Source: Gemmatimonadota bacterium
GTDB lineage: Bacteria; Gemmatimonadota; Gemmatimonadetes; Longimicrobiales; Gaopeijiaceae
Direction: 5' to 3'
NCBI GenBank assembly: GCA_022823225.1
Contig: JAJDXM010000031.1
Span: 1-32,617, forward strand
DNA length: 32,617 nucleotides
A model generated the notes under the pieces. The model saw nothing but the letters and a program-made list of their open reading frames with translations. It was not told the DNA's origin and made no database searches. How positions within the stretch are numbered: the stretch's first letter is position 1; every line of letters starts with the position of its first letter. Shown piece after piece: positions 6,096 to 27,332 of this stretch. A program made the translations under genes and the position numbers.

Positions 6096-6213
6096 TTGGA
6101 TCGCGCATCGGCTAGTGGCGTTGATTCACGGCAGCCGAAGGAGAATGAACGAGTTTGCAGTGGTTCCATCGTCCGCCAGATTCGGGCGCGGCGCCTGTCA
6201 ACACCTAGCACCG

Positions 6214-7317
6214 CTAAACCCTCGAATCCGAGTCACAGCTGACGGCACAGGACCCTGATGGTCTAGCTCCGTTGCGTAGGGCCGAGATTGGAACGGCGGC
6301 AATGTCGCCGCCGACCGCCCGTCGACCGAGCCTGATCGCCACCTCGAGCGTAGTACCCGAGCCGGCGAACGGGTCAAGCACAGTTCCGGGTACATATCCC
6401 GTCATGCAGGAGCATGAAGTGTACCCGGCTGATTCCCATTGCGGGAAAGTGAATTCTCGAAAATAGCCTCCTAGGAGCTTCTTTGCTTCGGAGGCGAGAC
6501 GTTGTACGGACGCCGAGTTCTTCTGTCCTTGGATCTCGCGACCCTTACCGGCGTCTGATATGCCGGTTGCCTGAATGGCTGCGATGTGGTCATTCGTCAG
6601 CCCTACCGTCTCGGCCAGCGCCTGGGCCCGCCTTGCCTGTGGTCGGTTGGGATTCAGAGACATCGTCTTTCTCATTAGTCGCTCTCGAGGGTAACCACAT
6701 GACCGGCAGACCTCGCTCGGACAGGCAAGAGTGATCGCGCGTTCAGCGAGCTCGCCGGGAAAGGGGGCTAAGTGGCTGTTGTTGCGACCGGAGGGGGGGA
6801 ACTCCCAGACGTCACTTGGCGAGACGCCTTCGCCTAGGTACTCCGAGTAGGCGTGAAGATCGTAGAAATACTTCGTCGATTTAGTGAGATGAAGTACGTA
6901 CTCATGTCGGGCCGGAAGGCGGTTTCGTGTGGGCGTCGGCATCCCTCTGATCTTGGACCATACGATGCGGTTCCGGACCTTCCATCCCTGGCCGCGGGCT
7001 ACCTCTTCGATGGCACCCGGAATCCCAGCTAGGCTGCGGTGACCGTTGTAGGTGTCACCGATATTCATGAACACCGAGCCGGACAGCTTCAGGACGCGTT
7101 TCATTTCGCCCAGTACTCTTGCCATTTCCTGGGCATATTCTTCCGGAGTGCTCTCTTGTCCGATCTGGCGCTCATGACCGTAGTCGCGGGTCTTGTAGTA
7201 CGGAGGCGACGTAACGACAAGGTCTATTGATTCAGACGCCAACGGAAGATTTCGAGCGTCACTCCTGTAGATCGCGACACGCTCGATGATGTGATTCGCT
7301 GGTTGGTTCTGGCTCAT
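6214..7317 (-). CDS. Site-specific DNA methyltransferase, beta class (N4-cytosine or N6-adenine)
   Basis: The 367-residue protein has the circularly permuted order of beta-class DNA methyltransferases: catalytic motif IV TSPPYY at residues 36-41 near the N-terminus and SAM-binding motif I FAGSGT at 317-322 near the C-terminus. Between them are pairs of cysteines (CPSEVCRSCG and TSCSCM) that could bind zinc. SPPY is compatible with N4-cytosine or N6-adenine methylation, and the target site cannot be read from sequence. A GAGAGG Shine-Dalgarno lies about 10 nt before the ATG. It sits 118 bp upstream of the nuclease-helicase and 118 bp downstream of the PLD-SNF2 helicase, all on the minus strand. 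It may protect host DNA from one of these neighbours. The C-terminal ~35 residues after motif I look little conserved. Confidence 0.85.
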   Translation of the reverse strand: MSQNQPANHIIERVAIYRSDARNLPLASESIDLVVTSPPYYKTRDYGHERQIGQESTPEEYAQEMARVLGEMKRVLKLSGSVFMNIGDTYNGHRSLAGIPGAIEEVARGQGWKVRNRIVWSKIRGMPTPTRNRLPARHEYVLHLTKSTKYFYDLHAYSEYLGEGVSPSDVWEFPPSGRNNSHLAPFPGELAERAITLACPSEVCRSCGYPRERLMRKTMSLNPNRPQARRAQALAETVGLTNDHIAAIQATGISDAGKGREIQGQKNSASVQRLASEAKKLLGGYFREFTFPQWESAGYTSCSCMTGYVPGTVLDPFAGSGTTLEVAIRLGRRAVGGDIAAVPISALRNGARPSGSCAVSCDSDSRV

Positions 7318-7435
7318 GGTCGCAGCCGCCTCTCAGGTTGCTCGCTCAATCGATCGCACGAGGCACCATTCCCATGGAGGTGCTCTGTCGTCGACCACTC
7401 ACCCGCGGCTGGGTGGTCCCAAGCTCGTTCTCTCA

Positions 7436-10400: not shown

Positions 10401-10780
10401 AAGTCCAGAAGCTCGCGCACCGAGGCTCGGCTCGGCCCGGAGAACGGGAGGCGGTCGCGGTCTCGTCTGAGTTTGCGCTCCGCGCCGTCGAGCTCCTCGT
10501 CCGCCAGCCTCTTCTCGTATCGCTCGCCGCGCGGATCGCCGAGGCGGCGCTCCGGCAGCCGGGCGGCGGGCAGCGGCTCGGCTCCGAGCAGGAGGCGCAC
10601 GCCTGCGGCGCGGCGGAGCACGTCAGCCAGCCGGCCGAATCCCCCCGGATTGAAGTATCCCGTCGCAATGGACGCCGAAGGCGGCTCGCGCAGCGTACCG
10701 AGCAGGTGTTCGAGGCGCTCCCGGAGCGCCCGCTCCAGAGTATTGCCATCGAGGTTGTCGACGAACTCCGGGTAACTCAT
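7436..10780 (-). CDS. PLD-like domain plus SNF2-family helicase
   Basis: The 1114-residue protein starts with a phospholipase D-like domain: His144-Gly-Lys146 followed by GSSNFT (Asn162). The Asp of a full HKD motif is replaced (Ser151), as can occur in helicase-associated PLDs. An SNF2/SF2 helicase follows: a Walker A-type DSVGLGKS (Lys275), DEAH at 353-356, LTATP at 384-388, and C-terminal motifs VFSYFGDTVEW and QRHGRIDRIG. Such PLD-helicase proteins are typically encoded with large Eco57I-type methylases in restriction-like loci and are thought to translocate along and possibly cleave DNA. The gene overlaps the upstream methylase-containing ORF by four bases (ATGA), indicating translational coupling. 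It appears full length. I could not match the locus to a named system such as DISARM, which keeps its PLD and SNF2 parts on separate proteins. Confidence 0.82.
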   Translation of the reverse strand: MSYPEFVDNLDGNTLERALRERLEHLLGTLREPPSASIATGYFNPGGFGRLADVLRRAAGVRLLLGAEPLPAARLPERRLGDPRGERYEKRLADEELDGAERKLRRDRDRLPFSGPSRASVRELLDFLDSGKIEVRRYEHRFLHGKAFLFSGKQGVLAGSSNFTLAGLTSNLELNLGQYQPGVVERVEEWFDRLWNDARPYDLAAIYREQFAEHLPYLIYLRALWERYGGELEEEAGDSGRIRLTRFQTDGVFRAKRILDQYNGVLVADSVGLGKSFIAAEIFTEVIERNRQRALLIAPAQLRDGMWRQFRTRYQVGIEVVSFEQLAGDRQLGQGDGSALGSSIGDYSLVVIDEAHGFRNADTKRARALRQLLRGDPPRKVVLLTATPVNNSLWDLYDLLTYFVGHDAVFADRGIPSLKERFRQADKEDPFSLSPDTLFDILDATTVRRTRHFVQRFYPNDNFRLKDGTEVTIRFPDPVVRSRSYDLDEVLPGFFDEFAEVLDSGEGEPKLTMARYWPTRYRREGTPDARETALVGLIRSGLLKRFESSARAFVQTVSRMVAAHDHFVRAVEAGVIPSSDSLAALRETDSDEAWEELLIEGEPVEDDLDTARLVEDVQSDRALLERLRVRASAIRAENDPKLKLLAGELARIAAEAERKGISERDIRNRRKVLVFSYFGDTVEWIAERLRQVVAADRRLARYRGRIAVVRGTDSFDGITRSDAVFGFAPESTEAPPSRSDDKYDILVTTDVLAEGMNLQQCGRIINYDLPWNPMRLVQRHGRIDRIGSPHEKVFLTCVFPDRQLEALLALEERIRRKLAQAAASIGLDQIVIPGAAHTEHVFADDRKQIEALRRGDSSLFERGGEGVHAHSGEEYRQELRKGIERWDDRIRDLAWGVGSGFVGGARTGHVFCARVFDRVFMRFVPLEPDAEIERDTLTCLGILSCTEDTERALPEGFAKGAFDAWKRARRDIYEEWMRATDPATLQPSIRPLFRAAADHVRMHPASGLSVEERDRVADALEAPWGIRQERCLREVFAPDEVGPGELTRRIADVVNELGLQPWRPPEPLDPIEEDEVNLVVWMGVMEADTSTASPHDSIPRSASTPEQIHKEGNK

Positions 10781-13284
10781 TGGTCACCCTGCCACGCCCG
10801 GAAGTGGTGCAGCGTGGCCCTCAGTCGCTCCTCGTGGTCCCAGCCTTCGTGGAACGTCTCGAAGATGTGGACGAGTTGCGACTCGGTGAGGGCGTAGAGG
10901 TGGGCGACCACGGCGTCGAGTTCCCAGATGTGGTCCTGCTTTTCGTCCGGGTCCATCGGACCGCACGCGACGCCGAGTCTTCCGGCCCATTCGGCGAAGC
11001 GGTCGTCTTGCGCCGCGAGTCGTCCGGCAAGAGCGATGACGCGTCCCCGCCGCGGGTTGTCCGGGTCGGGACGAGGTGCGGGGAAAGGGTTGATGACAAA
11101 GTAGGTCGGGTGTGTCTCCACGAATCGCCGTGCATACCAGTCGAGCGGAAGGGAACTCAGTAGGCCAAGCAGGAAAGCTTCATCCCTCTCGTCTCCGCGC
11201 GGGAGGAGGAAAAACGGCGAGTTGTGGACCAGCAAGACCCGTGGCGGCACCAACGCCGCCCGGATTGTGCGACTGTCAGTGGCACGAGTGACATCCCTGA
11301 AAGCGATGCGCGGTCGCAAGCACGGGAGAGTCTCGGGGTCGTCCCTCCACGCCTGATCGAACTCTGCGAACGCCGAGCGCCTGTTCGCACGCTTCCGCTT
11401 GCTCCGGAGACGGCCGAGTACTCGCTCGGGATCCGCCCAAGCGTAGTAGGTCCCCGTGTCCGGGGTCCAAAGGTCGAACGACGCCCCCTTATAGACCGGC
11501 CAGAATCCCTGGGGACACTCGTTCGACTCGATGTCCATCACATGCTTGTCGTTCGTGGCATCCAGTTCCCTATGTGGCCGTGCCCGCCAACCCACCCCGT
11601 CGTTGAGGTCCAGACGCGGGCTCCTGCGCAACTGCGCGAACACCTCCACCGACTCGTCCGACGGCAGAAGCGGGAGGGACGCCGTGTCGTTCCACGCCTC
11701 GACCTCGCGAGCGCAGAACGTCACCGGAGCACGCCGGACACCGGCCCGAAACCGCTTGAGGTTCGCATACGGCCCGTTCAGCCGAAGTTTGGACTCGCGG
11801 CTGTCCTTTGCGCGCGTAATGGCGGTTAGGCCGATGGTGTATTGCGGATGGACGTTCGGGAACACCCACTCGCGGTTGTTCACCAACATCGTCAGATCCA
11901 GCACCTCGGCGCTCGCCAGCAACTCCTTGCGGAATGCCGTGGATCCCTTCGCCGCCAGCGCCGAGCGGGGCAGCACGACGCCGATCCGCCCGCCGTCCGG
12001 CGACACAAGGTCCCAGAACCTCCAGACGAATGCCTTGTAGAGATCGGGGTCGCCCGTCCCCATCCCCGGAAACCCTCCAGCCGTGAGAAGGTGGCGCATT
12101 GAAGCTGCGCCGTCCTTTTCCGCTTCGAGCCGGTCCGCCAGATCCGGGCGCTGGGCCCGATACTGAACCTTCAGCGTCTCCTGCACCCTCTGCGGCCGCG
12201 ACCGCAAACCCGGGAAGTGGCGCGCCCAGAAAGCGTCCTCTTCGACGCGGGGTTTTTCCCACGGCGGATTGCCGAGGATCACGTCGAACCCGTTGCGGCG
12301 GCCAAGGAAGACGTGTGGGAAAGCGAGCGCGAAGTGCAGTACGTCCAGTCCCTTGAGTTCCTCGTGTCCCATATCCATCAACTGGGCTCGGAAGATGTCG
12401 CCCGGGTCGTCCAGAGCCGTCGCCACCCGTCCCTCAGCGATTGCTTCGCGGATGCTGCTGTTCGTCCGCGAGGCCGCCAGGAGCCCGCGCTGGCCGTCCG
12501 CCAGACTCCGCGCCGCCAGCGTCCGCTGGGTGATGAACTGGTTCAATCCCCAGTAGAAGAGGTTGGGGATCCAGAGGCCCCCGATGAAGACGGCGAGCCA
12601 CGGCATCTCGGTGTGGTTCCACGGCAGGACGGTGTGCAGCTTGCCGTCGGCGACCTCGAGGAATCGCTCCACTCCGCCGATCGCCTGGAAGCCGAGCACC
12701 GTCACCACCACCCCGCCCAGCAGCAGCGCCACGCCCTGGATCAGGTCCGACCAGACCACCGCCTTGAGCCCCCCGTAGATCGTGTAGCCGCCGGCGAGGA
12801 TCCCGATCAGCCAGATCCCGGCCACCGTGTCAATCCCGAAGATCGACTCGAGCGCGAGCGCCCCGGAATACAGCACGGTTGCCAGCGCGACGAACACGTA
12901 CGCCGCCATGATGAAGGCGGCCATGAGCGTGCGGGTGCGCAGGTCGTAGCGGAACTCGAGGTACTCCGGGATCGTGTAGATGCCCGCCTGCAGGAAGCGC
13001 GGCAGGAAGAACAGCCCGACCAGCACCAGCGTGACCGCGGCCATCCATTCGTAGCTGGCGATCGCGAGGCCGAGCTCGTATCCGCGGCCCGCCATGCCCA
13101 CGAAGTGCTCCGTCGAGATGTTGGACGCGATCAGCGAGAAGCCGATCAGCCACCAGGGCAGGTTCCGCCCCGCCAGGAAGTAGTCGGTGGCGTCGTGCTT
13201 GCCGCGCGACGCGTACAGCGAGACGCCCACGACGATCGCGAGGAAGCCGATGAAGGCGGCGATGTCGAGGGGCTGGAAGGACAT
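10777..13284 (-). CDS. Chimeric ORF: N-terminal half of SSS-family symporter fused to truncated Eco57I-type DNA methylase
   Basis: From the ATG at 13284 (longer readings use only TTG), residues 1-~270 are a sodium:solute symporter: hydrophobic helices with DYFLAGRNLPWWLIG, ASNISTEHFVGMAG, YTIYGGLKAVVWSDLIQG and FYWGLNQFITQRTLAARS. At about base 12430-12480 the protein switches, in frame, to a soluble Eco57I-like adenine methylase with catalytic motif NPPW (residues 339-342), the helicase-linked KAFVWRFWDLVSPDGGRIG block and a C-terminal target-recognition-like region. Symporters of this family have 11-14 helices; only about half are here. The methylase half begins only ~70 residues before NPPW, so SAM-binding motif I is missing. 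Both halves are therefore incomplete and the methylase is unlikely to be active. The methylase end couples to the PLD-SNF2 gene by an ATGA overlap, so the methylase was once the first gene of that pair. A deletion at the island edge or a misassembly would both explain this. Confidence 0.75.
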   Translation of the reverse strand: MSFQPLDIAAFIGFLAIVVGVSLYASRGKHDATDYFLAGRNLPWWLIGFSLIASNISTEHFVGMAGRGYELGLAIASYEWMAAVTLVLVGLFFLPRFLQAGIYTIPEYLEFRYDLRTRTLMAAFIMAAYVFVALATVLYSGALALESIFGIDTVAGIWLIGILAGGYTIYGGLKAVVWSDLIQGVALLLGGVVVTVLGFQAIGGVERFLEVADGKLHTVLPWNHTEMPWLAVFIGGLWIPNLFYWGLNQFITQRTLAARSLADGQRGLLAASRTNSSIREAIAEGRVATALDDPGDIFRAQLMDMGHEELKGLDVLHFALAFPHVFLGRRNGFDVILGNPPWEKPRVEEDAFWARHFPGLRSRPQRVQETLKVQYRAQRPDLADRLEAEKDGAASMRHLLTAGGFPGMGTGDPDLYKAFVWRFWDLVSPDGGRIGVVLPRSALAAKGSTAFRKELLASAEVLDLTMLVNNREWVFPNVHPQYTIGLTAITRAKDSRESKLRLNGPYANLKRFRAGVRRAPVTFCAREVEAWNDTASLPLLPSDESVEVFAQLRRSPRLDLNDGVGWRARPHRELDATNDKHVMDIESNECPQGFWPVYKGASFDLWTPDTGTYYAWADPERVLGRLRSKRKRANRRSAFAEFDQAWRDDPETLPCLRPRIAFRDVTRATDSRTIRAALVPPRVLLVHNSPFFLLPRGDERDEAFLLGLLSSLPLDWYARRFVETHPTYFVINPFPAPRPDPDNPRRGRVIALAGRLAAQDDRFAEWAGRLGVACGPMDPDEKQDHIWELDAVVAHLYALTESQLVHIFETFHEGWDHEERLRATLHHFRAWQGDQ

Positions 13285-13483
13285 GGCGGCGGGGTTTTGG
13301 TGGGTGGAGGCTGGCGGCAGAGGCAAGCGACGGCGGATGGCAGGATAGCGCCCAGGCGGCGTGGCTACCAGTGCCGGCGAGGGCGAACGGTCCTGGTCTC
13401 GGCAACCCTTCCGCCGTTCCTCGTGTCAGCGGTTCAGTCCACCGTCATTCAAACGACGGACGCTCACTCAAGCCGAACGACGG
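13285..13483. other. Divergent intergenic region, no recognised feature
   Basis: About 200 bp separate the symporter-methylase chimera (minus) from the propeller/sigma unit (plus). Promoters for both directions would be expected here. I see no convincing -35/-10 pair, palindrome or terminator. Confidence 0.3.
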
Positions 13484-16582: not shown

Positions 16583-18424
16583 ATGAACAACGGAACACGC
16601 AATCTCCTGTGTGCGGGGGCGGCGCTGGCTGTCCTGGTGGTGTCGGATGTCGCCTCGATGACGGGACCCCTGCCCGGTTCACAGTCGAGACGCCTTTCGG
16701 CGCAGGAGACGGGAGTCTGGAGTCGGGAAAACGAGGAGCAAAGATACCTGGAGGCTCGCCGGGCGGTGAACCGGGAAGAGTGCGACCGGGCAGCGGAACT
16801 CTTCCAGACCCTTCGGACCGAATACGACGAGGCCGCCGGTGGGCGCTTCATCGCGGACTCCTACTACTGGGAGGCGTTCTGCAGCCACCGGGCGGGTGAC
16901 CTTGACGAGGCGCTGGTACTGCTGGACCTGGCGAGCGTCCACCGCGAGGCCAGGAGATACGTCATCGAAGGCAGCTACCAGCGCCCGGGCCGGGTGTACC
17001 AGGAAGTGCGCGACCTCCGCCTCCGAATCCGGCGGCAACTCGCCGAGCAGGGCGATCCCGACGCGGCCGAGGAGGTGCTGCGGCAATCCGAAGCGGTGCT
17101 GGCCAGGGACACGGCCGCACGGCGCGAAGCCCAGGGGCAGCTCGAGGCGAGACACCGGGAGTTGCTGCGACAATGGCAGGCAGAGCAGGCGCGGGCGGAA
17201 CGGCTGTGGCAGGACGAGCAGGCGCGGGCGGCACGGCTGTGGCAGGAGCAACTTGCCCGGTACCAGGCACTGGATTCCACCGAGATCCAGGAAATCCTCC
17301 GACAGCCTGAGAGGATGGCCCAGCTTGCGGGGGCCATGGCCGCGCTGGCGGACACAGCCGCGGTGCCAATTGCCGGGATCGCCCGGAGGCCCTTTATGCC
17401 CGGGGTCTACCTGAACGAGCGGGGCGTCCTGGTCAACTCACCCGAAGTGGCGAGTTACTTCGCAACGAGGTTCAACCCGGTCCCCGACGCGGCCGACATC
17501 CACCCGGAGTGCGTGGACGCGCTTATTGAACAGGAGGCCCTCACCGCGCTGCTGCGCGTGCCGACCGACCGGCTGCCTACGGCCCGCGGCATACTCGAGC
17601 GCCGCGATGACTGCTCGGGGCACCTGCGCCACCTGGTGGTGCACTGGCTGGCCGGGACTGACACGGACGAGGCCCGGCAACTGCTGCTGGATGTCGCACG
17701 GGAACACCCGGACCCCGACACCCGCCAGCTGGCCGTCACGGGACTCGCGTACGTAATGACGCCTGAAGCGGCCGAGGTCCTGGTCAACATTCTGCGGGAG
17801 GCCCGCGACCGGGAGATGCAGGATGCGGCCATCAGCGGACTCTACCACCACCAGACCGAAGAAGCGTCTGAGGCTCTGATCGACTTTGCTGCTGACGGGT
17901 CGAAACCGGAACTGCAGCGTCAGCGGGCCGCCGTACTGGTTGCGGAACGTTTGAGTCCCGAATTGCTCCAGACGGTCTTCGGCAGATTCGACGACTACAG
18001 CGTCCAGCATGCCTTTCTTGAAATCGTGGGCGCGAGGGCGGAGCACGGAGAGCACGGGGTCACCAGTTGGCTCTTGCCGGTGATCGTCGACGGAGAACAC
18101 CCGGAGCGCGTCCGCGCGGAGGCCCTGCGAGCCTGGGCCAGGCAGCCTTCGCTGGATCTGGAACGGGTCGAAGAGACGTACAACCGGCTTGAGAGCGCCG
18201 AGTTGCGGGATCAGTTCCTCTACGCCCTGTACCAGACGATCGAGTCCGACGAGGAGAATGCGGATGCGATCATAGACAAGATGATCGAGTTGGCCCGCGA
18301 GGAAACGGATCCGGAGGTGCGCAGGCGGGTCATCTACTGGCTCGGCCGTACGGGATCGGACCGTGCCGCGGCGTTCCTCGTGGAGATACTGCGAAAAGGT
18401 TTCGACCGGCTGCCGGCGCCATGA
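16583..18424 (+). CDS. Secreted HEAT-repeat protein with hendecad coiled coil
   Basis: The 613-residue protein begins with a signal sequence (NLLCAGAALAVLVVSDVAS; probable cleavage near SAQE at ~40). A TPR-like helical region follows (DRAAELFQTLRTEYDEAA, YYWEAFCSHRAGDLDEALVLLDLA). Next comes a charged coiled coil at ~185-225 containing two exact-length 11-residue repeats, RAERLWQDEQA and RAARLWQEQLA. The C-terminal half is built of HEAT-like repeats (ARQLLLDVAREHPDPDTRQLAVTGLAYV, AEVLVNILREARDREMQDAAISGLY, DPEVRRRVIYWLGRTGSDRAAAFLVEIL). It is probably a periplasmic scaffold or adaptor with no catalytic motif. It follows the anti-sigma gene after an AT-rich spacer and is coupled to the next gene by ATGA. 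Confidence 0.75.
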   Translation: MNNGTRNLLCAGAALAVLVVSDVASMTGPLPGSQSRRLSAQETGVWSRENEEQRYLEARRAVNREECDRAAELFQTLRTEYDEAAGGRFIADSYYWEAFCSHRAGDLDEALVLLDLASVHREARRYVIEGSYQRPGRVYQEVRDLRLRIRRQLAEQGDPDAAEEVLRQSEAVLARDTAARREAQGQLEARHRELLRQWQAEQARAERLWQDEQARAARLWQEQLARYQALDSTEIQEILRQPERMAQLAGAMAALADTAAVPIAGIARRPFMPGVYLNERGVLVNSPEVASYFATRFNPVPDAADIHPECVDALIEQEALTALLRVPTDRLPTARGILERRDDCSGHLRHLVVHWLAGTDTDEARQLLLDVAREHPDPDTRQLAVTGLAYVMTPEAAEVLVNILREARDREMQDAAISGLYHHQTEEASEALIDFAADGSKPELQRQRAAVLVAERLSPELLQTVFGRFDDYSVQHAFLEIVGARAEHGEHGVTSWLLPVIVDGEHPERVRAEALRAWARQPSLDLERVEETYNRLESAELRDQFLYALYQTIESDEENADAIIDKMIELAREETDPEVRRRVIYWLGRTGSDRAAAFLVEILRKGFDRLPAP

Positions 18425-19659
18425 AGAACAGCCTCGCGGCGGGCACGCTTCTACTCGCCGGCTTCCTCCTCGGGGCCCTTGCGGTGCGGACCGTGCACGA
18501 AACCAACCCGGACGTCCGCTCGGTTGAGGTACCCGAAATCGTGTTCCCGTCCGCGGCTCTGAAACAGTGGTTTCCGCCGGTATCGCAATACGATACAGGC
18601 GGCCAGCCTTTGGACGACGAGAGCTTTGGAGCACTCATGACGGCGCTCGATGATGCACTGAACGCCAGCGAGACGCTGTCGGACTTCGAGCAGGAGGGCG
18701 ACATCCATCTATGGAACTTCGTCCGCCGACTGATGCGCCCCAGGATTACGGAGGCGCAGAGTGAGAGGATCGCGGCATACATGGAGGAACTCCAGGCACG
18801 GCACCCGGATCACAGCGAAAAGATCGCGCATCACGCGGCCTCGCTCGCGATCCTTTACGGCGACGCCGTGCCCGATGTTCCGCCTTTCTCCTGGGGCCCG
18901 GGCACGTTCCAGCACGCCGCCGCCGCCTTCGACCCGGTTTCTGACGGAGGGGCCTTTACCGAAGCCCATGTCGACGCGTTGCTTGCCTGGATCCATACCG
19001 CCTTGACCATGCCCGAAACCGCGAACGACTTCGACCGGGAAGCCGTCCGCTATTTCGGCGAGTTGGGCCGCATCCTCCAGCAGGCGGAGCTTGGCGAGCA
19101 GCAAAGCGGTCGTGTGTTCGCGTCGCTGGACCGGATGAAGGGATCGAACGAGTACATCGATACGATGGAAAGGGAACTGGAAAAACTGCGCAGTTTCATT
19201 CCGGGGGGAATCCCGCCGAACATCGTGGCAAACGACACCGAGGGGATCGAATTCGCCCTGGATGAATACCGGGGAAACATCGTGGTCCTGATCTTCTCCG
19301 GACACTGGTGTGGGCCGTGCCGCGTGGAATACCCCTACCATCGCTTCATGCTCGAACTGTACGAGGACAAACCGGTCGTGCTGCTCGGAATCAACAGCGA
19401 CGGCGAACTCGAGACGATTCGGCAGGCGAAGATCGACGAAGGACTGGACTACCGCACCTGGTGGGACGGGCACGCCACGGTTCCGACCGCGGGGCCGATC
19501 GCCACAGCATGGAACGTGCTCGAATGGCCGACGATCTACATCCTCGACGGAGCCGGCGAGATCCGTCACGTGGACAAGCGTGGCGGCGACCTTATCGCTG
19601 CCGTGGATCGAATGCTCGCGGAGATGGCCGAGCGCGACTCCGGGAGTGGACAGCAATGA
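18421..19659 (+). CDS. Membrane-anchored TlpA-like thioredoxin-fold protein, copy 1
   Basis: The 412-residue protein has an N-terminal signal anchor (LAAGTLLLAGFLLGALAV), a ~230-residue helical region and a C-terminal redoxin domain. The domain starts with IPPNIVANDTEGIEFALDEYRGNIVVLIFSG and carries the active site WCGPC (Cys297, Cys300), followed by VVLLGINSD, a WPTIYILDGAGEIRH cis-proline region and a final helix. The family performs thiol-disulphide exchange in the periplasm. The start overlaps the HEAT-gene stop (ATGA at 18421-18424). It is clearly paralogous to the next gene across its full length, including the unusual helical region. The partner substrate is unknown. Confidence 0.82.
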   Translation: MKNSLAAGTLLLAGFLLGALAVRTVHETNPDVRSVEVPEIVFPSAALKQWFPPVSQYDTGGQPLDDESFGALMTALDDALNASETLSDFEQEGDIHLWNFVRRLMRPRITEAQSERIAAYMEELQARHPDHSEKIAHHAASLAILYGDAVPDVPPFSWGPGTFQHAAAAFDPVSDGGAFTEAHVDALLAWIHTALTMPETANDFDREAVRYFGELGRILQQAELGEQQSGRVFASLDRMKGSNEYIDTMERELEKLRSFIPGGIPPNIVANDTEGIEFALDEYRGNIVVLIFSGHWCGPCRVEYPYHRFMLELYEDKPVVLLGINSDGELETIRQAKIDEGLDYRTWWDGHATVPTAGPIATAWNVLEWPTIYILDGAGEIRHVDKRGGDLIAAVDRMLAEMAERDSGSGQQ

Positions 19660-19719
19660 ACGCATTAGCTGGAGGACCGAATACACTTCAGCCCGGCCCC
19701 AACCGAGGAGGTCGCTACC

Positions 19720-20934
19720 ATGCGAAACCCCTTCACAATCATCGGAATCGTCGCCCTCTCCCTCGTGGCAGGGGCCTTCATCTCTGAGGCGGTTGGATGG
19801 CCTGGTTTCTCCCATCCGGCAACGGAGGAGGGCGCCGCTACCTTCCTGCCCGCAGCGCTGAGCCGCGAGTGGTTTCCTCCGCTGGAAGACTACGACAACG
19901 GTGGAGAGCCGCTCGACGACGCGCTGTTCGAAAAACTGATGGAGCACCTCGATGTGGCCATGAACGCCGAGGAGACACAGGCCGACTTCAGGTGGGAAGC
20001 GGAATTGCACTTGTCAAACTTCGCTCAACGCCTGGTCGTCCCCGAACTCACGACCGGGCAGCAGGAGCGCGTCACGCACTATTTCGCCACCTTGGAAGAG
20101 CAATACAAGGAACACCGCGATATGATCGACCAGCAGAGGGTGTTCCTTCGGATGGACGCCCGCCCTGCTGACGATATCATGGGTCTGTCCATGTGGACGC
20201 AGCCATATGGCGACGCTGCGGACCTGAATCCCGAGGGTGGATTCTTCGAAGGCCAACAGGTAGACGAGATTGTCGGGCGAGTTGACGCGTTCCTCAAGCA
20301 TCCGGACGTGGTTCGGAGCTTTGAGCGAGACGCGAGATTCCCGTTGGTGCACATGATTCAAGTCCTTGGGATGGGACGCCTCACACCGGCACAAACCAGT
20401 CGCGTCGTCAACTACTTCGACCAGTTGATAGAGGAGCACCCCGAAGGAGCGGAGTTCCTGGAAGAGACTCGCTATCGGATCTCGAATCTGCTGCCCGGGC
20501 AGGTCGCCCCGAGCATCGTCGGGAAGGATGCCGCAGGGGTCGAGTTCTCGCTGGAGGAGTACCGCGGGCAGATCGTCGTCCTGGTCTTCTCGGGATTCTG
20601 GTGCGGGCCGTGCCACGCCGAGTATCCCTACCAGCGCGCCATGATGGAGCTGTACGCGGACCAGCCCGTAGCCCTGCTGGAGGTGAATTCCGACGAGTCG
20701 CTCGATGTCCTGCTTGTCGCCAAGGCGCAGGAAGGCCTTACTCACCGGGTCTGGTGGGATGGCCATATGGAGGGAGCGAACAAGGACGGTCCGATTACAT
20801 CCGCCTGGGCAGTTAACATGTGGCCGACCACCTTCATCCTGGACAAGGAAGGCGTGATCCGGAAGGTGTCGTCGGGGGCGCAGCGTGGGAAGACGATTGT
20901 GGCGGTGGACGAGCTGCTGATGGAATACCGGTAG
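19720..20934 (+). CDS. Membrane-anchored TlpA-like thioredoxin-fold protein, copy 2
   Basis: This 404-residue paralogue of the preceding gene has the same layout: signal anchor (FTIIGIVALSLVAGAFI), a helical region (REWFPPLEDYDNGGEPLDDALFEKLMEHLD parallels copy 1), then a redoxin domain with WCGPC (Cys295, Cys298), LLEVNSD and WPTTFILDKEGVIRKV. The start is supported by a strong Shine-Dalgarno (GAGGAGGT) about 8 nt before the ATG at 19720, unlike the coupled genes upstream. A 60-bp gap separates it from copy 1. Tandem duplication followed by divergence is the simplest origin. Compared with copy 1, the position after the CGPC motif changes from Arg to His, and it has a short insertion (EGANKDGPI). 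Confidence 0.82.
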   Translation: MRNPFTIIGIVALSLVAGAFISEAVGWPGFSHPATEEGAATFLPAALSREWFPPLEDYDNGGEPLDDALFEKLMEHLDVAMNAEETQADFRWEAELHLSNFAQRLVVPELTTGQQERVTHYFATLEEQYKEHRDMIDQQRVFLRMDARPADDIMGLSMWTQPYGDAADLNPEGGFFEGQQVDEIVGRVDAFLKHPDVVRSFERDARFPLVHMIQVLGMGRLTPAQTSRVVNYFDQLIEEHPEGAEFLEETRYRISNLLPGQVAPSIVGKDAAGVEFSLEEYRGQIVVLVFSGFWCGPCHAEYPYQRAMMELYADQPVALLEVNSDESLDVLLVAKAQEGLTHRVWWDGHMEGANKDGPITSAWAVNMWPTTFILDKEGVIRKVSSGAQRGKTIVAVDELLMEYR

Positions 20935-20979
20935 GCAATGGTGACACGGCCGGTCATCAATCCGCACAAGAGAACTTCC

Positions 20980-22194
20980 ATGACCCGAACCGGAACCAGG
21001 ATCGCCGCCACCGCCGCCTCCCTCCCTCTCCTCCTGGCCTGCGACCCCGGCTCACAACCCGGTCCCGCCACCCTCGCCACAGACAGCGCGGGTGTCAGGA
21101 TCGTCTACAGCGACCCCGCGTCCTCCGGCGCCACCTGCACCATCGGCGAGGAGCCGACCGTCGTGATCGGCGACAACGACAGCGACGAGAACCAGTGGTT
21201 CTCCTCCGTCAGGGATGCGGCGCGGTTGTCCGACGGCTCGATCGCCGCCGTCGATCAGGCCTGGGCCGAGATCCGGATCTACGACTCGGCCGGCGAGCAC
21301 CTGCGCACCATGGGGAGGCACGGTGAAGGACCCGGCGAGTTCCAGGACCCCTACCAGATCTGGGTCGGTGCGGGCGACACAATCTGGGTCGGCGACTACT
21401 CCCCGTGGCGCTACAACCTGTTCGCGCCGGACGGAGCTTTCGTACGTGTCGTCGGTCTGGCACCCATGTTCATCAACCCGTCCAGGGCGGGAGGCGTGCT
21501 CGACAACGGGTACAGTGTGAACTCCACCGTCACGTGGTTTCGCAAGTCGGACTACAGCGTTCCGGACTCCATGGTCGTGGAGGGGCATGGTCCCGACGGA
21601 CAGCTCATCGACACGCTGGCCAGCATCCCCCATGGGAGCTGGGGGCAGGACGACCACGAAGCGCTGCGCACCTACTGGCTCCCCCGCCTCTTCGACGCGC
21701 GCGCCGTGGTCGACGCGGGCGGATCCACGGTTGCGCTGGGTCACGGGCTGAACGCCGAGGTTCGCGTCCTCGACGATGAATTCGACCTCCGCCTCATCGT
21801 GCGGTGGACAGAGCCTGACCGGGAGGTGACCGGCGGAGATGTGGAAGCCTGGCGCGCGGACTACACCCGGGAGTATGAGCGGCCCACCTCTTCACCGATG
21901 GCCGAGGCCTATGACGCCAACCTCAGCGACGACCGTCCGGTGGCCGACCTCTTCCCGGCCATCTCCGGCGTGATGGTCGGCCGTGACGATCGCATCTGGG
22001 TACGCCAATACGACAGACCTGGGGAAGATCGGGGATGGCTGGCCTTCGACCCCGACGGGGAGTTCCGGTGCCACATGGCCCCCCCGCCCGGGTCGATCCT
22101 GGAATTCGGCTCGGACTACGTGCTGCTGCGGCATGAGTCGGACCTTGGGGTGCAGACGGTTCGGCTGCACGGGTTGGAGTTGCCGCAGGTGTAG
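20980..22194 (+). CDS. Six-bladed beta-propeller lipoprotein
   Basis: I choose the ATG at 20980 over 20938 because it gives a compact lipoprotein signal (MTRTGTRIAATAASLPLLLAC, lipobox LLAC, Cys21). The mature part starts with the family signature DSAGVRIVYSD and has propeller blades with LSDGSIAAVDQAWAEIRIYDSAGEHLRTMG, GEGPGEFQDPYQIWVG, DTIWVGDYSPWRYNLFAPDG and DRIWVRQY. Role unknown; probably surface-exposed ligand binding. It is the last plus-strand gene of the sigma-factor region and converges on the next gene with a 62-bp gap in which I see no strong terminator. Its last 111 bp recur nearly exactly at 28687-28797. Confidence 0.78.
   Translation: MTRTGTRIAATAASLPLLLACDPGSQPGPATLATDSAGVRIVYSDPASSGATCTIGEEPTVVIGDNDSDENQWFSSVRDAARLSDGSIAAVDQAWAEIRIYDSAGEHLRTMGRHGEGPGEFQDPYQIWVGAGDTIWVGDYSPWRYNLFAPDGAFVRVVGLAPMFINPSRAGGVLDNGYSVNSTVTWFRKSDYSVPDSMVVEGHGPDGQLIDTLASIPHGSWGQDDHEALRTYWLPRLFDARAVVDAGGSTVALGHGLNAEVRVLDDEFDLRLIVRWTEPDREVTGGDVEAWRADYTREYERPTSSPMAEAYDANLSDDRPVADLFPAISGVMVGRDDRIWVRQYDRPGEDRGWLAFDPDGEFRCHMAPPPGSILEFGSDYVLLRHESDLGVQTVRLHGLELPQV
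22084..22194 (+). repeat. Dispersed 111-bp repeat, copy A (3' end of propeller gene)
   Basis: This stretch, encoding the last 36 residues (PPGSILEFGSDYVLLRHESD...) and stop of the propeller gene, matches 28687-28797 with three mismatches by eye. Confidence 0.85.
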
Positions 22195-22256: not shown

Positions 22257-23525
22257 TCAGCCGGTCCCCACCAGCTCGTACACCACGACATTCTCGACGT
22301 CCATTGCGTCCAGCTGGACTCCGAGTACGAGCCCACCGACCACGTCAAGAATCCGAAACCGCGGCGGGGCCTCCACCGTGCCCAGCCACTCCCCGTCGCC
22401 GGAGATGACGGTGTACTGCGGCGCTCCCTCGGTGCGGACTGCCGGCTGGTAGGCTGGCAGCCACACCCGGCCCTCCGAATCCCCGATCGGGGTCGCGAAG
22501 AGGGGCATCGGGTCGCCAAGGACGGCCCGGCGTGTGGCCATGTTGTCACTGGTCATGCGATCGATGGCGGCATCCGACGCGCCCGGGTTGGCCAGCTGGT
22601 TTCTGGCCCTGAGCCCGGCCTCGATGCCTTCGAGCAACTCCTCTGTCAGGGGAGCCGCCTCGGCCTGCCACCGCACGATCTGCGTGACGGTACCATCGGG
22701 ACGATGCCAGGCGACCTGCGGTCGATCGGTGCGTGCGTAGACGAACTGACGGGCGACGACCGCAACCCAGCCGGCCGCCCCGATCGGGTTCCACCGGATT
22801 CCCGGGGGAGCCTGGGCGAGCAAATCGTAGGAAGCGACCGTGTCGAGGGTGCCGGTTTCCATGTCGAACCGGGCCATGTGGCCGGGAAGCCATTCCTCCT
22901 CGAAGTCGGGCGTCATCAGATTCGCAGTTCCCAGCAACTGTCCGGATTCGCCGATTCCCAAAACACTCAGCGGATCGGCGTGCCGAATGTCCACCGTGCG
23001 TTCGACCGAGCCGCCGTCAAAGATGGTCAGGCGGTCCAGCTGGAAGTCGACCGCCATGAATCTGTCCTGCCCCAGCGCGAACGTGGCTCCCACGTAGCTG
23101 ACGTCTCCCGGGCCCTCGCCGGGCCCGGCAATTACCTCGTGCGACGCGCCGTCCGGGCTCAGGACGATCAGTTCCCTGTTGAGCACATCCGAAACCACGG
23201 CGCTGCCGTCCGGAAAGAGGCTGCCGGGCTGGACTGCCTGGAAGGCGTAATCGCCGGGGTTGGTGCCGTGGCGGTAGCGTGGTTCGGGCGGGAACCGGAA
23301 GGGTGCCTCGGTCACGGGCGTCCCCATGTACTCCACGATACGCACGCCGGCGCTGTCTTCGACCTGGACCGGGATGCCGGCGGTTTCACGGATATCGGAC
23401 TGGCAGGCTGAGAGTGCCGCGGCCAGCGCCGGTAGCATCAGGCGGATTGCACGATCTGCGTTCCGTGCCGTTGCATTGGACCCTGCCCATGATGCGTCTG
23501 TCGTATCCGTGTGCGCTCGTCGCAT
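22257..23525 (-). CDS. Six-bladed beta-propeller lipoprotein
   Basis: The 422-residue protein has a lipoprotein signal (RLMLPALAAALSAC, lipobox LSAC, Cys41) after a ~28-residue N-terminal extension; an internal ATG at 23438 would give a shorter leader but has no ribosome site. The mature sequence opens with QVEDSAGVRIVEYMG, the signature shared with the genes at 20980 and 30366. Blades include FPDGSAVVSDVLNRELIVLSPDG, GPGEGPGDVSYVG and EGRVWLPAYQPAVRTEG. Function unknown, likely envelope ligand binding. It lies 17 bp downstream of the secreted propeller at 23543 on the same strand, so it may be the last gene of the blaI-blaR1-propeller transcript. Confidence 0.78.
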   Translation of the reverse strand: MRRAHTDTTDASWAGSNATARNADRAIRLMLPALAAALSACQSDIRETAGIPVQVEDSAGVRIVEYMGTPVTEAPFRFPPEPRYRHGTNPGDYAFQAVQPGSLFPDGSAVVSDVLNRELIVLSPDGASHEVIAGPGEGPGDVSYVGATFALGQDRFMAVDFQLDRLTIFDGGSVERTVDIRHADPLSVLGIGESGQLLGTANLMTPDFEEEWLPGHMARFDMETGTLDTVASYDLLAQAPPGIRWNPIGAAGWVAVVARQFVYARTDRPQVAWHRPDGTVTQIVRWQAEAAPLTEELLEGIEAGLRARNQLANPGASDAAIDRMTSDNMATRRAVLGDPMPLFATPIGDSEGRVWLPAYQPAVRTEGAPQYTVISGDGEWLGTVEAPPRFRILDVVGGLVLGVQLDAMDVENVVVYELVGTG

Positions 23526-23542: not shown

Positions 23543-24658
23543 TCAGTTCACCGACGGCAACATCCCCGGGCACGGCTCGCCGCTGACCCGGCGCAACGGG
23601 TGGAGCGAGACCCGGTTGGCGCTGTCCGTGTAGTAGGTGGTTCCGCCGTTCTCGTTTGGCTCGCTGTAGTTGTGAAACACCAGGACGCTGTCGCCGAGGA
23701 GGCGCACGGGCACACGGGCCTTGTCGGTGCTCGGATCCTTCCGGACGATCGCGTAGCAGCCGGTCTCCGGGTTGATGATTGTGCCCGCAAAATCGAAGTC
23801 ACTACCCAGTAGCACGAGATTGCCCCGGTCGTCCATGGAGGGCGTCAGGCCCCGGTTCCAGACAAAACAGGGGGCGCGGCCCACGAACTGGCCGGATGCC
23901 GTCGTGAGCTCCCTCTTCTCGCATCCCTCCCAGTCGGCGAAATCGGTGGGCACCGCCCCCACGGTCCCCGTCTCACCACTCCCATGGTACACGAACACGG
24001 AGTCCGGGCCATCCGTGTAGGACCTCACGACGAAGGCCCTGGACTCCGTGCAGACGATCCGGGCGCCGACGTGCGTTGTGACGAACGCATTGTTCTCCTC
24101 GATGGAGCGGATTTCGGGGGCGCGGTCCCTGTCCACTGCTGGGGGCATGCCGTCACTCGTCGCTTCCGGTCCCCTTCGCTCGACTCCGGACGGTATCGGA
24201 ATGGCCGGCTCGCCGCCAAAGTCGCAAACGTCAAAGGTTTGTTTCCAATCGGGGGTCCAGGAGCTGACGAAAACGCCCAGCGCATCGTACTCGACCACTC
24301 TTCCCAGGCCGGACACGTAGAAGCCCCCGTCCGGGGCGATCGCCGTGCTCCCCCTGCCGTTCGGGAACTCCCGGGGGCCGTCGCCCTCCGGGGTCTCGAT
24401 GGTTCGGATCCATTCGCCCGTCTCGAGGGAGAAGGCCATGATCCCTTCCGGTTCCTCGGCGTCGATGACGTAGAGGATGCCCCTGCTTCGGTCGATGGCC
24501 AGATCGGCGGTTCGCATCGACCGCCATTCGTCGTCGATGATGGTCCGGCCGGCTGTGTAGTCGATCTCCAGCAGCTGTTGGGCGTCCGCCGCGGGCGCGG
24601 CGAAGATCGCCGCAACGGCGAGCGGTATGACGGTCCAAGAGCGATTCAGCATCCTCAT
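23543..24658 (-). CDS. Secreted beta-propeller, paralogue of the BlaR1-like sensor domain
   Basis: I choose the ATG at 24658 because AGGAG lies five bases upstream; the longer start at 24682 has no ribosome site. The ~371-residue product has a cleavable signal peptide (TVIPLAVAAIFAAPAADAQQ). The remainder is a full-length paralogue of residues ~390-731 of the upstream BlaR1-like protein: both start EIDYTxGRTIIDDE, share DRSxGILYVIDAEE, GDGxREFP, CDxGGEPAIPxPSGV and end in GEPCPGMLP. Six or so conserved cysteines (for example CDFGGEP, GARIVC, WEGCEKRE, APCFVWNR, ETGCYAIV, EPCPG) may form disulphides. It could be a soluble competitor or co-receptor for the same ligand as the BlaR1-like sensor; that is inference. 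The last 120 bp before the stop region are identical in both genes. Confidence 0.75.
   Translation of the reverse strand: MRMLNRSWTVIPLAVAAIFAAPAADAQQLLEIDYTAGRTIIDDEWRSMRTADLAIDRSRGILYVIDAEEPEGIMAFSLETGEWIRTIETPEGDGPREFPNGRGSTAIAPDGGFYVSGLGRVVEYDALGVFVSSWTPDWKQTFDVCDFGGEPAIPIPSGVERRGPEATSDGMPPAVDRDRAPEIRSIEENNAFVTTHVGARIVCTESRAFVVRSYTDGPDSVFVYHGSGETGTVGAVPTDFADWEGCEKRELTTASGQFVGRAPCFVWNRGLTPSMDDRGNLVLLGSDFDFAGTIINPETGCYAIVRKDPSTDKARVPVRLLGDSVLVFHNYSEPNENGGTTYYTDSANRVSLHPLRRVSGEPCPGMLPSVN
23561..23680 (-). repeat. 120-bp identical repeat, copy 1
   Basis: Identical base for base to 24707-24826; it encodes the C-terminal ~40 residues of the secreted propeller. Confidence 0.9.
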
Positions 24659-24697
24659 TTCCTCTCCTGTATGCCTTTCCATGATGTGTTTGCCGTT

Positions 24698-26887
24698 CTA
24701 AGGCAGCATCCCCGGGCACGGCTCGCCGCTGACCCGGCGCAACGGGTGGAGCGAGACCCGGTTGGCGCTGTCCGTGTAGTAGGTGGTTCCGCCGTTCTCG
24801 TTTGGCTCGCTGTAGTTGTGAAACACGAGGACGCTGTCGCCGAGGACGCGCACGGGCAGTCGGGCCTTGTCGGTGTTCGGATCCTTGCGGACGATCGCGT
24901 AGCAGCCGGTCCCGGGGTTGATGATGGTGCCGGCGGTGTAGAAGTCCACCTCACTGAGGAGGACGAGATTGCCCCGGCCGTCCATGGACGGCGTCAGGGC
25001 CCGGTTCCAGACCCAACAGGGGGCGCGGCCCGCGGACTGGCCGGATGGCGTCCTGACCTCCCTTTTCTCGCACCCCTCCCACTCGGCGAAATCGGTGGGC
25101 ACCGCCACCCTCCCCGTCTCGCCACTCCGGTGGTACACGAAGACGGAGTCCGGACCGTCCAGATAGGACCGTACGACGAAGGCCGTAGACCCCGTGCAGG
25201 CGATACGGGCACCGAAGTGCGTCGTGTTGAACGTAGACGCCTCCTCAGGGGATCGAGCTGTGAAGCTGTCTTCCTCCGCGGCCTCCGCAGGGATGGGATC
25301 GTCTGTGCCGTCAGGCCCCCTTCGCATCACTCCGGACGGCATCGGAATGGCCGGCTCGCCGCCCAGGTCGCAGACTCCGGTGCCCTTCTGCCAACCTGGA
25401 CTCCACGCGCCTACGAAGGCGCCCAGCGCATCGTGTTCGAGAACCCTTCCCGGGCCTGATACGTAGATGCCTCCATCGGGTGCAATCGCCGTGCTCCACC
25501 TGCCGCCGGGGAACTCGCGCAGGCCATCGCCCCGCGGGGTCCGGATGGTTCGGATCCAATCGCCGGTCTCGAGGGAGAAGGCCATGACGCCTTCCCTTTC
25601 CTCGGCGTCGATGACGTAGAGGATCCCTTTGCTTCGGTCGACGGCAAGGTCGGTGGCCCACATCGAGCGTCGTTCGTCGTCGATTATGGTCCGGCCGGTC
25701 GTGTAGTCGATCTCGAGCACGGCGATCCGATTGCCGGTGCCGTCCTCCGACGCCGTGGCGGTCGGCAACTGCGGCTGGGCGAGGGCCCGCCGCGCGCCCG
25801 GAGTGAAGTACACAAGACCGAGGGACAACCCGAACACCAGCGCGGCCGCGCCGGCCACGCGCAGCCTGCCGACGGCGGCTGAAACGGAAGAGGTTGCCAT
25901 AACCGTCCTCAGCCTCTGCTCCAGCCGCCTTGAATCCCGGCAGCCGTCAGCCATGCTCGCCAGGGCCGGGGCCCGCGGGATCGGGACGGCCGACATGATC
26001 TCGACCACGCGGAGCAGTGACTTGGCGTACTGATCCCGCGTGAGCCTCGACGCGGCGACGGCGACGATATCGCAGCTCGACTCCTCGGCCGACCTCATCC
26101 TGCGCTTGGCCCACCAGACGACCGGATTCCACCAGTAGGCCGAGCACGCCAGCAATTCCACCACTCGCACCAGGTAGTCACGGCGCCGCACGTGGGCCAG
26201 CTCATGCGCCAGCACCGCGCGAAGCTCGGTCTCATCGAGCTCGGCGACGAAAATCGCTGGAATCAAAACGCGAACGCGCCCGCCCGCCCACCACACCATT
26301 GGGCGCAGCCGCGCATCCGTGGTGTAGACACGCGGCACTCGCGGCAGGCCCAGCGTGTCGCAGATCTCGGTCGCGAGCCGTTGCAACTGTGGGGCCGGCC
26401 GGGCGGCGCGGGTAAGCGTTCGATGAAAGCGGACCGTCCGCGCCACGGTCCACCCGAGGAACCCGGCGGAACCCAGCAGCCAAAGGATCGCAGCCAGGGG
26501 GTTTCCGTTCTGCGCGAGCCACGCGCCCAGGGAAAAGGCATCACCGTTCAATCCGGGGTCGGCTACCACCGGCGGGCCGACCTCGCGTCGCACCACAGCC
26601 TCTTGCGCCAAGTCCTCCGGCGGAGCGGGAAGCGGCTCGGCTGTGGACTGCGCCGTCAACTCGGACTGCGCCACGTGGGACTGCCCCACAACCTCCTCCT
26701 CCGCCCCCTCCGGCAGAATCCGAAGCGGGACGACTGCGGGCACCAGCATTGTGACGAGCACCATGAGCCACAGGGCATGGACGGTTGCCGGCCGCTTCAC
26801 GCGTTGCTGGACCGCCCAGGCCGCGCCGCCCAGCGCGAACGCGAGCGCCAGCTTCGTGGCGCCGATCTGCAGCAGGATGTCGGTCAT
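24698..26887 (-). CDS. BlaR1/MecR1-like M56 membrane protease with C-terminal beta-propeller sensor
   Basis: The N-terminal ~370 residues match the M56 antirepressor protease family. There are membrane helices near residues 10-25, 38-58, 125-150 and 345-365, the zinc site HELAH (His230, Glu231, His234, counted from an upstream ATG at 26893) in AVLAHELAHVRRRDYL, and the downstream Glu in SAEESSCD. In BlaR1 the part outside the membrane is a penicillin-binding domain. Here residues ~390-731 are instead a beta-propeller with EIDYTTGRTIIDDE, YVIDAEEREGVMAFSLETGDW and GGIYVSGPGRVLEHD. No SxxK serine site of a penicillin-binding domain is seen. The ATG at 26887 overlaps the blaI stop (ATGA), so the pair is coupled. 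Expected mode: ligand binding outside triggers the protease to relieve BlaI-type repression. The ligand is unknown. Confidence 0.82.
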   Translation of the reverse strand: MTDILLQIGATKLALAFALGGAAWAVQQRVKRPATVHALWLMVLVTMLVPAVVPLRILPEGAEEEVVGQSHVAQSELTAQSTAEPLPAPPEDLAQEAVVRREVGPPVVADPGLNGDAFSLGAWLAQNGNPLAAILWLLGSAGFLGWTVARTVRFHRTLTRAARPAPQLQRLATEICDTLGLPRVPRVYTTDARLRPMVWWAGGRVRVLIPAIFVAELDETELRAVLAHELAHVRRRDYLVRVVELLACSAYWWNPVVWWAKRRMRSAEESSCDIVAVAASRLTRDQYAKSLLRVVEIMSAVPIPRAPALASMADGCRDSRRLEQRLRTVMATSSVSAAVGRLRVAGAAALVFGLSLGLVYFTPGARRALAQPQLPTATASEDGTGNRIAVLEIDYTTGRTIIDDERRSMWATDLAVDRSKGILYVIDAEEREGVMAFSLETGDWIRTIRTPRGDGLREFPGGRWSTAIAPDGGIYVSGPGRVLEHDALGAFVGAWSPGWQKGTGVCDLGGEPAIPMPSGVMRRGPDGTDDPIPAEAAEEDSFTARSPEEASTFNTTHFGARIACTGSTAFVVRSYLDGPDSVFVYHRSGETGRVAVPTDFAEWEGCEKREVRTPSGQSAGRAPCWVWNRALTPSMDGRGNLVLLSEVDFYTAGTIINPGTGCYAIVRKDPNTDKARLPVRVLGDSVLVFHNYSEPNENGGTTYYTDSANRVSLHPLRRVSGEPCPGMLP
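24707..24826 (-). repeat. 120-bp identical repeat, copy 2
   Basis: Identical to 23561-23680; it encodes the C-terminal ~40 residues of the BlaR1-like protein. The flanking sequence of the two paralogues is clearly more diverged. Confidence 0.9.
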
Positions 26888-27255
26888 TCCCATTCCTCCA
26901 GAATCCTGCGCAGCCTCTCGATCTCCCTTTTCGGCAGCCTGTCCGCCTCGAGCAATTGCGTGATGATCGGGACGACCGATCCATCGGTGATCCGCTGGGC
27001 GAGAACCTCGAGCCGGTCGCTCGCGTATTCCTCCCGGCTCGGGACCGGAGAGAACCGGTAGACACCCACGTCACGGTCACGGACCACGAACCCCTTCTCC
27101 ATGAGGCGTTGCAGCAGACTCTGGACGGCACCGTGCTGCGAACGCGGCGAGTTCGGGTAGAGCTGCTCCTGGATCTGGCGTGCCGACAGGCGCGGCTTTC
27201 GCCAGAGCAGCTGCATGATGGCCAGTTCGGCGTTAGGCAGTTTCGGCATTCCCAT
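26884..27255 (-). CDS. BlaI/MecI/CopY-family transcriptional repressor
   Basis: At 123 residues it has the usual family length. The N-terminal winged helix is clear (LPNAELAIMQLLWRK, LSARQIQEQLYP, QHGAVQSLLQRLMEKGFV, VYRFSPVPSREEY), followed by the C-terminal dimerisation helices (LEVLAQRITDGSVVPIITQLLE, REIERLRRILEEWE). A GGAGGG ribosome site lies about 6 nt before the ATG at 27255. It is the first gene of a minus-strand unit with the BlaR1-like protease and propeller genes. It should bind the two palindromes in its own promoter as a dimer and be inactivated after signalling by the M56 protease. Confidence 0.9.
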   Translation of the reverse strand: MGMPKLPNAELAIMQLLWRKPRLSARQIQEQLYPNSPRSQHGAVQSLLQRLMEKGFVVRDRDVGVYRFSPVPSREEYASDRLEVLAQRITDGSVVPIITQLLEADRLPKREIERLRRILEEWE

Positions 27256-27285: not shown

Positions 27286-27302
27286 TACGGCAATCAGCCG
27301 TA
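27286..27302. promoter_or_regulatory. Operator 1 for BlaI-type repressor
   Basis: A perfect 6+6 palindrome, TACGGC-N5-GCCGTA, covers the predicted transcription start just downstream of the -10 box. Binding of the BlaI homologue here would block initiation. Confidence 0.65.
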
Positions 27303-27332
27303 ATGTTAATGCACCGTGCCGTATTCTGTCAA
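27303..27332 (-). promoter_or_regulatory. Sigma70-type promoter of the blaI unit
   Basis: On the minus strand a perfect -35 TTGACA (27327-27332) is followed, after 18 bp, by TAACAT (27303-27308; four of six consensus bases); TTAACA with a 17-bp spacer is an alternative. Transcription would start near 27296, about 40 nt before the blaI ATG. Confidence 0.65.
27307..27323. promoter_or_regulatory. Operator 2 for BlaI-type repressor
   Basis: TAATGC-N5-GCCGTA is a half-degenerate copy of operator 1 with the same 17-bp length. It lies within the -35/-10 spacer, and its centre is 21 bp (two helical turns) from that of operator 1, so two dimers would sit on one DNA face. Confidence 0.6.

Follow-up and report, generated by a model that had tools for sequence, protein, structure and literature searches.

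BlaR1 is known as an antibiotic-resistance sensor. In the Staphylococcus aureus BlaR1/BlaI pair (PDB 8exp-8ext), as far as the structural account goes, an M56 fold with HEXXH and ExxxD motifs is combined with a C-terminal domain outside the membrane, the blaI gene adjoins, the promoter carries dyads, and the sensor is kin to the regulated product (PMC9834060); the class D-like sensor and the beta-lactamase product of the bla system are described there and elsewhere as relatives (PMC7593790, PMC9834060). OXA-domain BlaR homologues of non-clinical bacteria similarly join M56 to an extracellular sensor, one which, in the account given, retains the class D active site (PMC9045261). The window analyzed here, a 32,617-nucleotide stretch of a Gemmatimonadota genome, contains a locus in which each feature of the S. 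aureus pair has an observed or predicted counterpart, but where the class D beta-lactamase-like sensor described for S. aureus BlaR1 is replaced in the fused protein, P0001, by a propeller-like domain. The features of this locus are as follows, in order of transcription; propeller types are lettered A to D.

27303..27332 (-): sigma70-like promoter TTGACA-N18-TAACAT, interleaved with the dyads; read from sequence
27307..27323 (-): imperfect second dyad TACGGCACGGTGCATTA, 21 bp from the first; likewise read from sequence
27286..27302 (-): dyad TACGGC-N5-GCCGTA, candidate BlaI operator 1
26884..27255 (-): blaI-like repressor gene P0003, 123 aa; Pfam Penicillinase_R, E 4.4e-21; overlaps the M56 gene
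24698..26893 (-): fusion of M56 and a probable propeller, P0001, 731 aa; full-length orthologues at 83% and 79% identity
25988..26821 (-): Peptidase_M56 domain, residues 25-302; Pfam E 4.3e-28; AF2 model resembles BlaR1 8ext
26504..26734 (-): first extracellular loop (EL1 equivalent), residues 54-130, 77 aa
26192..26206 (-): zinc motif HELAH, residues 230-234; aligned with BlaR1 HEXXH
26069..26083 (-): gluzincin motif ExxxD, residues 271-275; aligned with BlaR1 EVEAD
25796..25861 (-): fourth hydrophobic segment, about residues 345-366; from hydropathy, with a model helix at 341-359
25724..25750 (-): junction scar SEDGTGNRI, residues 382-390; like the N-terminal DSAGIRI of type B/C/D propellers
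24701..25720 (-): type A propeller-like sensor, residues 392-731; hhalign profile match, four invariant Cys, purifying selection
23543..24682 (-): solo type A propeller P0002, with a Sec-type signal peptide; 77% identical to the fused propeller; downstream of the fusion gene after a gap of 15 nt
22257..23525 (-): solo type B propeller, downstream of P0002 after a gap of 17 nt; carries a lipobox-like LSAC

The M56 protease and its coupled repressor

P0001 is encoded by a single uninterrupted frame of 731 codons with zero internal stops. Its second ATG (26887, codon 3), at which the preliminary description had placed the end of the feature, would give a protein of 729 aa and, sharing an ATGA overlap with the blaI stop, is the likelier start compared with 26893. 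The protein scores 98.8 bits against Pfam Peptidase_M56 (PF05569; curated cut-off 31), and its HELAH at residue 230 and E271xxxD275 align with the motifs of BlaR1 (8exs), as these are defined in the structural account (PMC9834060). In a full-length AF2 model built from 36 alignment rows, pLDDT was 80-97 in ten-residue blocks over residues 121-300, and residues 7-323 matched BlaR1 8ext_A with Z 17.5 and rmsd 3.8 over 245 aligned residues; the runner-up family in this fold comparison was ZMPSTE24, at Z 9.8. By profile and model, then, P0001 belongs to the M56 peptidases and its membrane and protease part is predicted to have the BlaR1 fold; the M56 module and the coupled BlaI gene of the preliminary description are both borne out. 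It had also implied that the penicillin-binding domain is missing, and no penicillin-binding or transpeptidase domain was found in P0001 by Pfam at E up to 1, while the NCBIfam BlaR1/MecR1 models matched its M56 part alone, at 56.9 bits against a cut-off of 400. Because the defining sensor was tested for and not found, P0001 does not belong with BlaR1 and MecR1 among the beta-lactam receptors. A reading of P0001 as a genuine beta-lactam sensor to which a further domain has been added would be in keeping with the BlaI/BlaR1-like pair, but in the face of these two results we regard it as scarcely credible.

Hydropathy identifies four hydrophobic segments in P0001, the last at about residues 345-366. 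Since the C-terminal 340 residues follow this fourth segment, BlaR1 topology predicts them to lie outside the inner membrane. At the end of TM4, about residue 365, the window protein reads LVYF and most relatives read LVYC, a cysteine for which lipid attachment or a disulfide is possible. The EL1 loop is 71-91 aa long in 10 fused stems versus 46-50 aa in five unfused sister M56 proteins; in the BlaR1 structures, as described, EL1 sits in the active site of the sensor (PMC9834060).

The perfect dyad before blaI recurs in two other loci (L001 and L003), and other loci of the fusion clade carry diverged forms at the same position, with TTGAC(A/C) at the matching position in the other loci of this clade. 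In planctomycete relatives, a different dyad, ACGACA-N3-TGTCGT, lies upstream of blaI. Within the window's own genome the strict pattern TACNGCN5GCNGTA was no commoner than its reversed control, and we claim no regulon; because the control was in fact commoner (12 sites versus 5), the candidate operator is proposed from its position and conservation. A BlaI gene stands beside 24 of the 28 fusions found in the genus (20 upstream, 4 downstream), the remaining four comprising two that are second in arrays and two that begin at contig ends. This association bears on whether the M56 protein might instead be a processing protease for propellers or other envelope proteins, with BlaI cleavage not its role. 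BepA and ZMPSTE24, which are processing or quality-control proteases, are among its structural relatives, but with BlaI adjoining in most cases and a dyad promoter ahead of blaI, we consider such a role very improbable.

Elsewhere in the window, positions 72-13326 hold a defence island comprising a DRT type 1a-like C-terminal part (72-1577, +; PADLOC E 3e-154), a DpdJ-like helicase (1674-6095, -), a type II DNA methylase (6214-7317, -), a PLD/SNF2 helicase (7436-10780, -) and a type IIG fragment. The last lies in an 849-aa frame (10777-13326, -) that begins as a sodium:solute symporter (SSF) over its N-terminal third, the SSF match breaking off at profile position 232 of 406. At about residue 280-300 the frame continues without a shift into a type IIG restriction-modification enzyme, of which it contains the C-terminal half (PADLOC E 2e-107); this chimera perhaps marks the edge of an inserted island or an assembly join. 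Two tandem redoxin/TlpA-like proteins (18421-20934, +), with AhpC-TSA at about residues 260-385 and N-terminal parts of ~250 residues, are followed directly by a DUF5128-like propeller gene (20938-22194).

A probable propeller, predicted to lie outside the membrane

The C-terminal ~340-residue all-beta domain of P0001 is probably a beta-propeller, an assignment drawn from several weak family and profile matches. Pfam gave no match in this part of P0001 itself, and P0002 reached 11.4 bits against DUF5128 (PF17170), below the curated cut-off of 22.9. Within an alignment of 20 type A sequences, five matched DUF5128 (best E 0.045), four matched NHL (best 1.2e-4) and one matched SGL (8e-5), all of them weakly. 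The type A profile aligned by hhalign to the DUF5128-like propellers of the same genomes with E 6e-5 over 90 columns at a probability of 65%, a match that depends on settings, as others gave 5e-4 and 31%; compared with itself, the profile contains weak internal repeats (best off-diagonal E 0.003). Neither P0002 nor the type A profile drew more than chance-level matches from PDB sequences, and a scan of viral contigs with P0002 returned no relative. Of the order's 154 genomes, 18 contain matches to the type A profile, and 15 of these 18 belong to the window's own genus.

The preliminary description had specified a six-bladed propeller and proposed structure prediction of residues 390-731. Modeled alone from 7 alignment rows, the propeller had a pLDDT of 42.5, too low to trust fold or blade number; in the full-length model the sensor part is mostly below pLDDT 60. 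Both are low-confidence models with a mostly beta pattern in the sensor part, and the Foldseek matches of the full-length one to propellers had E-values no better than 2e-4 and TM-scores of at most 0.25. The propeller stands as probable, on the profile and family matches, while the count of six blades finds no support at this pLDDT. The extracytoplasmic location that had also been claimed is predicted here both from the position of the domain after the fourth hydrophobic segment and from four cysteines (508, 566, 664 and 726) that are invariant in 20/20 type A homologues and fit disulfides outside the cytoplasm.

Retention, matching and exchange of the sensor

Full-length orthologous fusions were found in two other Gemmatimonadota genomes (L001/G005 and L002/G003), at 83% and 79% identity (82% and 78% by a second search), in each case preceded by blaI and followed by a solo type A gene. 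Chance or assembly error behind the fusion is unlikely, given the same full-length fusion in two other genomes. Across the three genomes the fused propellers share 86-89% identity and have dN/dS values (NG86) of 0.18-0.22, whereas the M56 parts of the same proteins are 72-78% identical with dN/dS of 0.35-0.45; the propeller is under stronger purifying selection than the protease. The fusion is thus real, since two related genomes keep it and the sensor is under purifying selection. A tree of the propellers groups the three fused copies together (100/100) and apart from the solo copies, and pairing of the window's fused and solo propellers was rejected (p-AU 3e-6). This separation argues that both copies coexisted before the three lineages split, and that both were retained.

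In the genus at large, about 193 M56 matches were obtained from 23 genomes; after removal of short, motif-less or duplicate rows, 155 distinct genes were examined among the best-scoring matches listed. The search for further fusions and their neighbors that the preliminary description had suggested found a C-terminal propeller fused in 28 of these 155, a count in which some rows are frame-broken or partial (L202, L216) and L097 is scored as unfused. A tree of 129 of the 155 genes (segments below 180 aa were excluded, among them the fusion P0004 on G000:C47) requires that the fused state changed four times or more; this state is carried by two large groups of 11 and 14 rows and by one single row; by this tree, the fused state is inferred to have arisen more than once. 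The full 1.5 kb downstream was available for 140 M56 genes, and within it a propeller gene lies on the same strand in 84 and on the opposite strand in one (same-strand split: 17/27 fused, 67/113 unfused). In the upstream control window the corresponding counts were 15/40 and 8/40; propellers are thus frequent upstream too, and part of the neighborhood signal is general clustering.

These counts bear on a more mundane origin, in which the fusion is a by-product of tandem propeller duplication behind an M56 gene, the propeller being tolerated baggage and M56 signaling otherwise. Tandem duplication of propeller genes is clear (78-93% DNA identity at 1146-1149 nt spacing), unfused M56-propeller neighbors are common (67/113), and some relatives are frame-broken (L097, L202). 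Baggage would nonetheless not be expected to hold a dN/dS of about 0.2 over three genomes, to form a fused clade of its own, or to be fused more than once, and we judge this origin improbable.

The window's own genome (G000, 4.19 Mb) yields at least 151 DUF5128-like propeller profile matches and 12 of type A, and on these matches contains a very large expansion of secreted propellers. It also encodes two further fusions in other M56 groups: L133 (G000:C47:44818-46758, P0004), whose propeller has stand-alone relatives 68-75% identical in seven other genomes, and L135 (G000:C63:27586-29769), which has next to it a solo propeller that shares 63% identity with its sensor. A three-M56-gene array (L139:9365-14859, on G000:C87) is followed by same-strand propeller genes; the C-terminal parts of its M56 proteins contain short stretches that may resemble those of TonB-receptor plugs.

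The preliminary description had the fused propeller drawn from the family of secreted propellers around it, which holds for the adjacent gene at 23543-24682 alone, the rest being of types B, C or D. A solo propeller of the sensor's own type lies directly downstream in 7 of 11 near-clade fusions: the window, G005a and G003 (type A), and G017, G014 twice and G010a (type B). The unmatched cases are G005b (C), G010c (D, then B), G010b and G022. Across all 28 fusions, the fetched locus contains a solo propeller of 60% or higher identity in ten cases and no detectable similar one in 11; because of these 11, copying of the effector by the sensor is not universal. Sequence comparison thus gives good support, at this locus and among its close relatives, to the idea of a sensor that copies its effector, and does not make it a general rule.

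The near clade comprises 12 M56 genes with a propeller, one of them frame-broken with the propeller following in another frame; they form a single clade (100/100) beside five propeller-less sisters. Three of their sensors are of type A and seven of type B (among these one shortened and one frame-broken); types C and D are represented once each. A single clade of type A rows on the M56 tree was rejected (p-AU 0.004), and a single clade of type B was not (p-AU 0.089). Among 67 fusion pairs that share at least 70% M56 identity, the propellers have no match at E 1e-5 in 33 and are at least 60% identical in 17. The occurrence of the same stem with differing propellers suggests a plug-in receptor whose sensor is borrowed from neighboring secreted proteins.

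The junctions suggest how the type A sensor was acquired. Fused type A proteins read PQLPTxAxSEDG(T/A)GNR and then LEIDY, and fused type B proteins read PQLPTPAMSEDSAGIRIVEY or close variants, with SEDSAGIRI where fused type A has the scar. The SED-G motif is present in 3/3 distinct fused and 0/19 distinct solo type A sequences, the solo proteins having a signal-peptide-like start at this point. Because of this scar, the type A propeller appears to have been spliced into an older B-like fusion, replacing another propeller type.

A proposed propeller-sensed switch and its known relatives

We propose, at somewhat better than even confidence, that the locus is a one-ligand switch of the BlaI-BlaR1 type, with a membrane-tethered copy of a co-regulated secreted propeller as its sensor. 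BlaI would repress the dyad-bearing promoter ahead of its own gene. The propeller's ligand would bind the tethered copy outside the inner membrane and, by analogy with BlaR1, binding would activate the cytoplasmic M56 site, leading to cleavage of BlaI. The operon would then be derepressed, and more of the secreted propeller or propellers of the same specificity would be made. The solo type B gene probably shares the operon with P0002, and type B is the sensor fused onto the same M56 stem in relatives. The preliminary description had suggested that the receptor senses what neighboring propellers bind; a same-type secreted propeller in the same operon makes this more likely than could be appreciated at the time. 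As part of this explanation, the M56 stem with its long EL1 would serve as a fixed chassis, the sensor being exchanged by recombination with propeller genes.

Alternatively, the propeller may bind no small ligand. Propellers are often protein-docking platforms, and the sensor may instead dock a partner protein (such as the secreted paralogue, or an outer-membrane or cell-wall protein), such that the system reports envelope state or secretion load. The paralogue within the same operon and the abundance of propellers in the genome (at least 151 matches) fit such docking; it has yielded no candidate partner, and 10 of the 28 fusions lack a downstream propeller as the obvious one (one of these ends near a contig end), which leaves it unlikely, though the weightiest of the alternatives.

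Extending the ligand-gated switch to the whole genus is a more tentative step, which we put somewhat short of an even chance: its M56/BlaI systems may form a modular chassis in which a fixed junction directly past the last TM helix accepts swaps, by recombination, from a pool of more than 150 secreted propellers in the genome, each receptor sensing the ligand of its co-transcribed propeller. If so, these bacteria would be diversifying a recognition repertoire through domain exchange. Here, in a phylum that is seldom cultured, the BlaR1 protease chassis has repeatedly been combined with sensors of other kinds, and the ligand that triggers BlaI cleavage would offer a route to the role of its many unnamed secreted propellers. 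The chassis could double as a programmable one-ligand biosensor. Natural sensor swaps also provide material on the passage of a signal from outside, through the membrane, to the M56 site, which the BlaR1 structural account names as an outstanding question (PMC9834060).

Comparison with described families and architectures places the locus as follows. The sensor and its solo neighbors resemble DUF5128 (PF17170), NHL and SMP-30 propellers by weak family and profile matches, but P0001 and P0002 fall below every curated cut-off of these families. A planctomycete protein (L033, 775 aa) also has M56 followed by a propeller-class domain, with BlaI upstream; its propeller is of the WD40 type and its phylum is another, and the architecture presumably arose independently of the window fusion. 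Among 32 M56 proteins scanned outside the phylum, one each carried WD40 (L033), LRR, Secretin_N and HEAT repeats; a varied C-terminus on M56 is thus a known kind of arrangement. In the open-licence literature we found no paper joining BlaR1, M56 and a propeller, and none on DUF5128 or Gemmatimonad six-bladed beta-propellers; Gemmatimonadota together with BlaR1 gave one match, a review on resistance. As far as that literature shows, propeller-sensed BlaI/M56 switches, their matched secreted partner and the evidence for sensor exchange are new. The bla system co-encodes a beta-lactamase or PBP2a, whereas a secreted propeller is co-encoded here and cleavage of BlaI is expected by analogy. With that difference, the switch in the window would follow the same logic as the bla system, where sensor and product are kin, with another fold.
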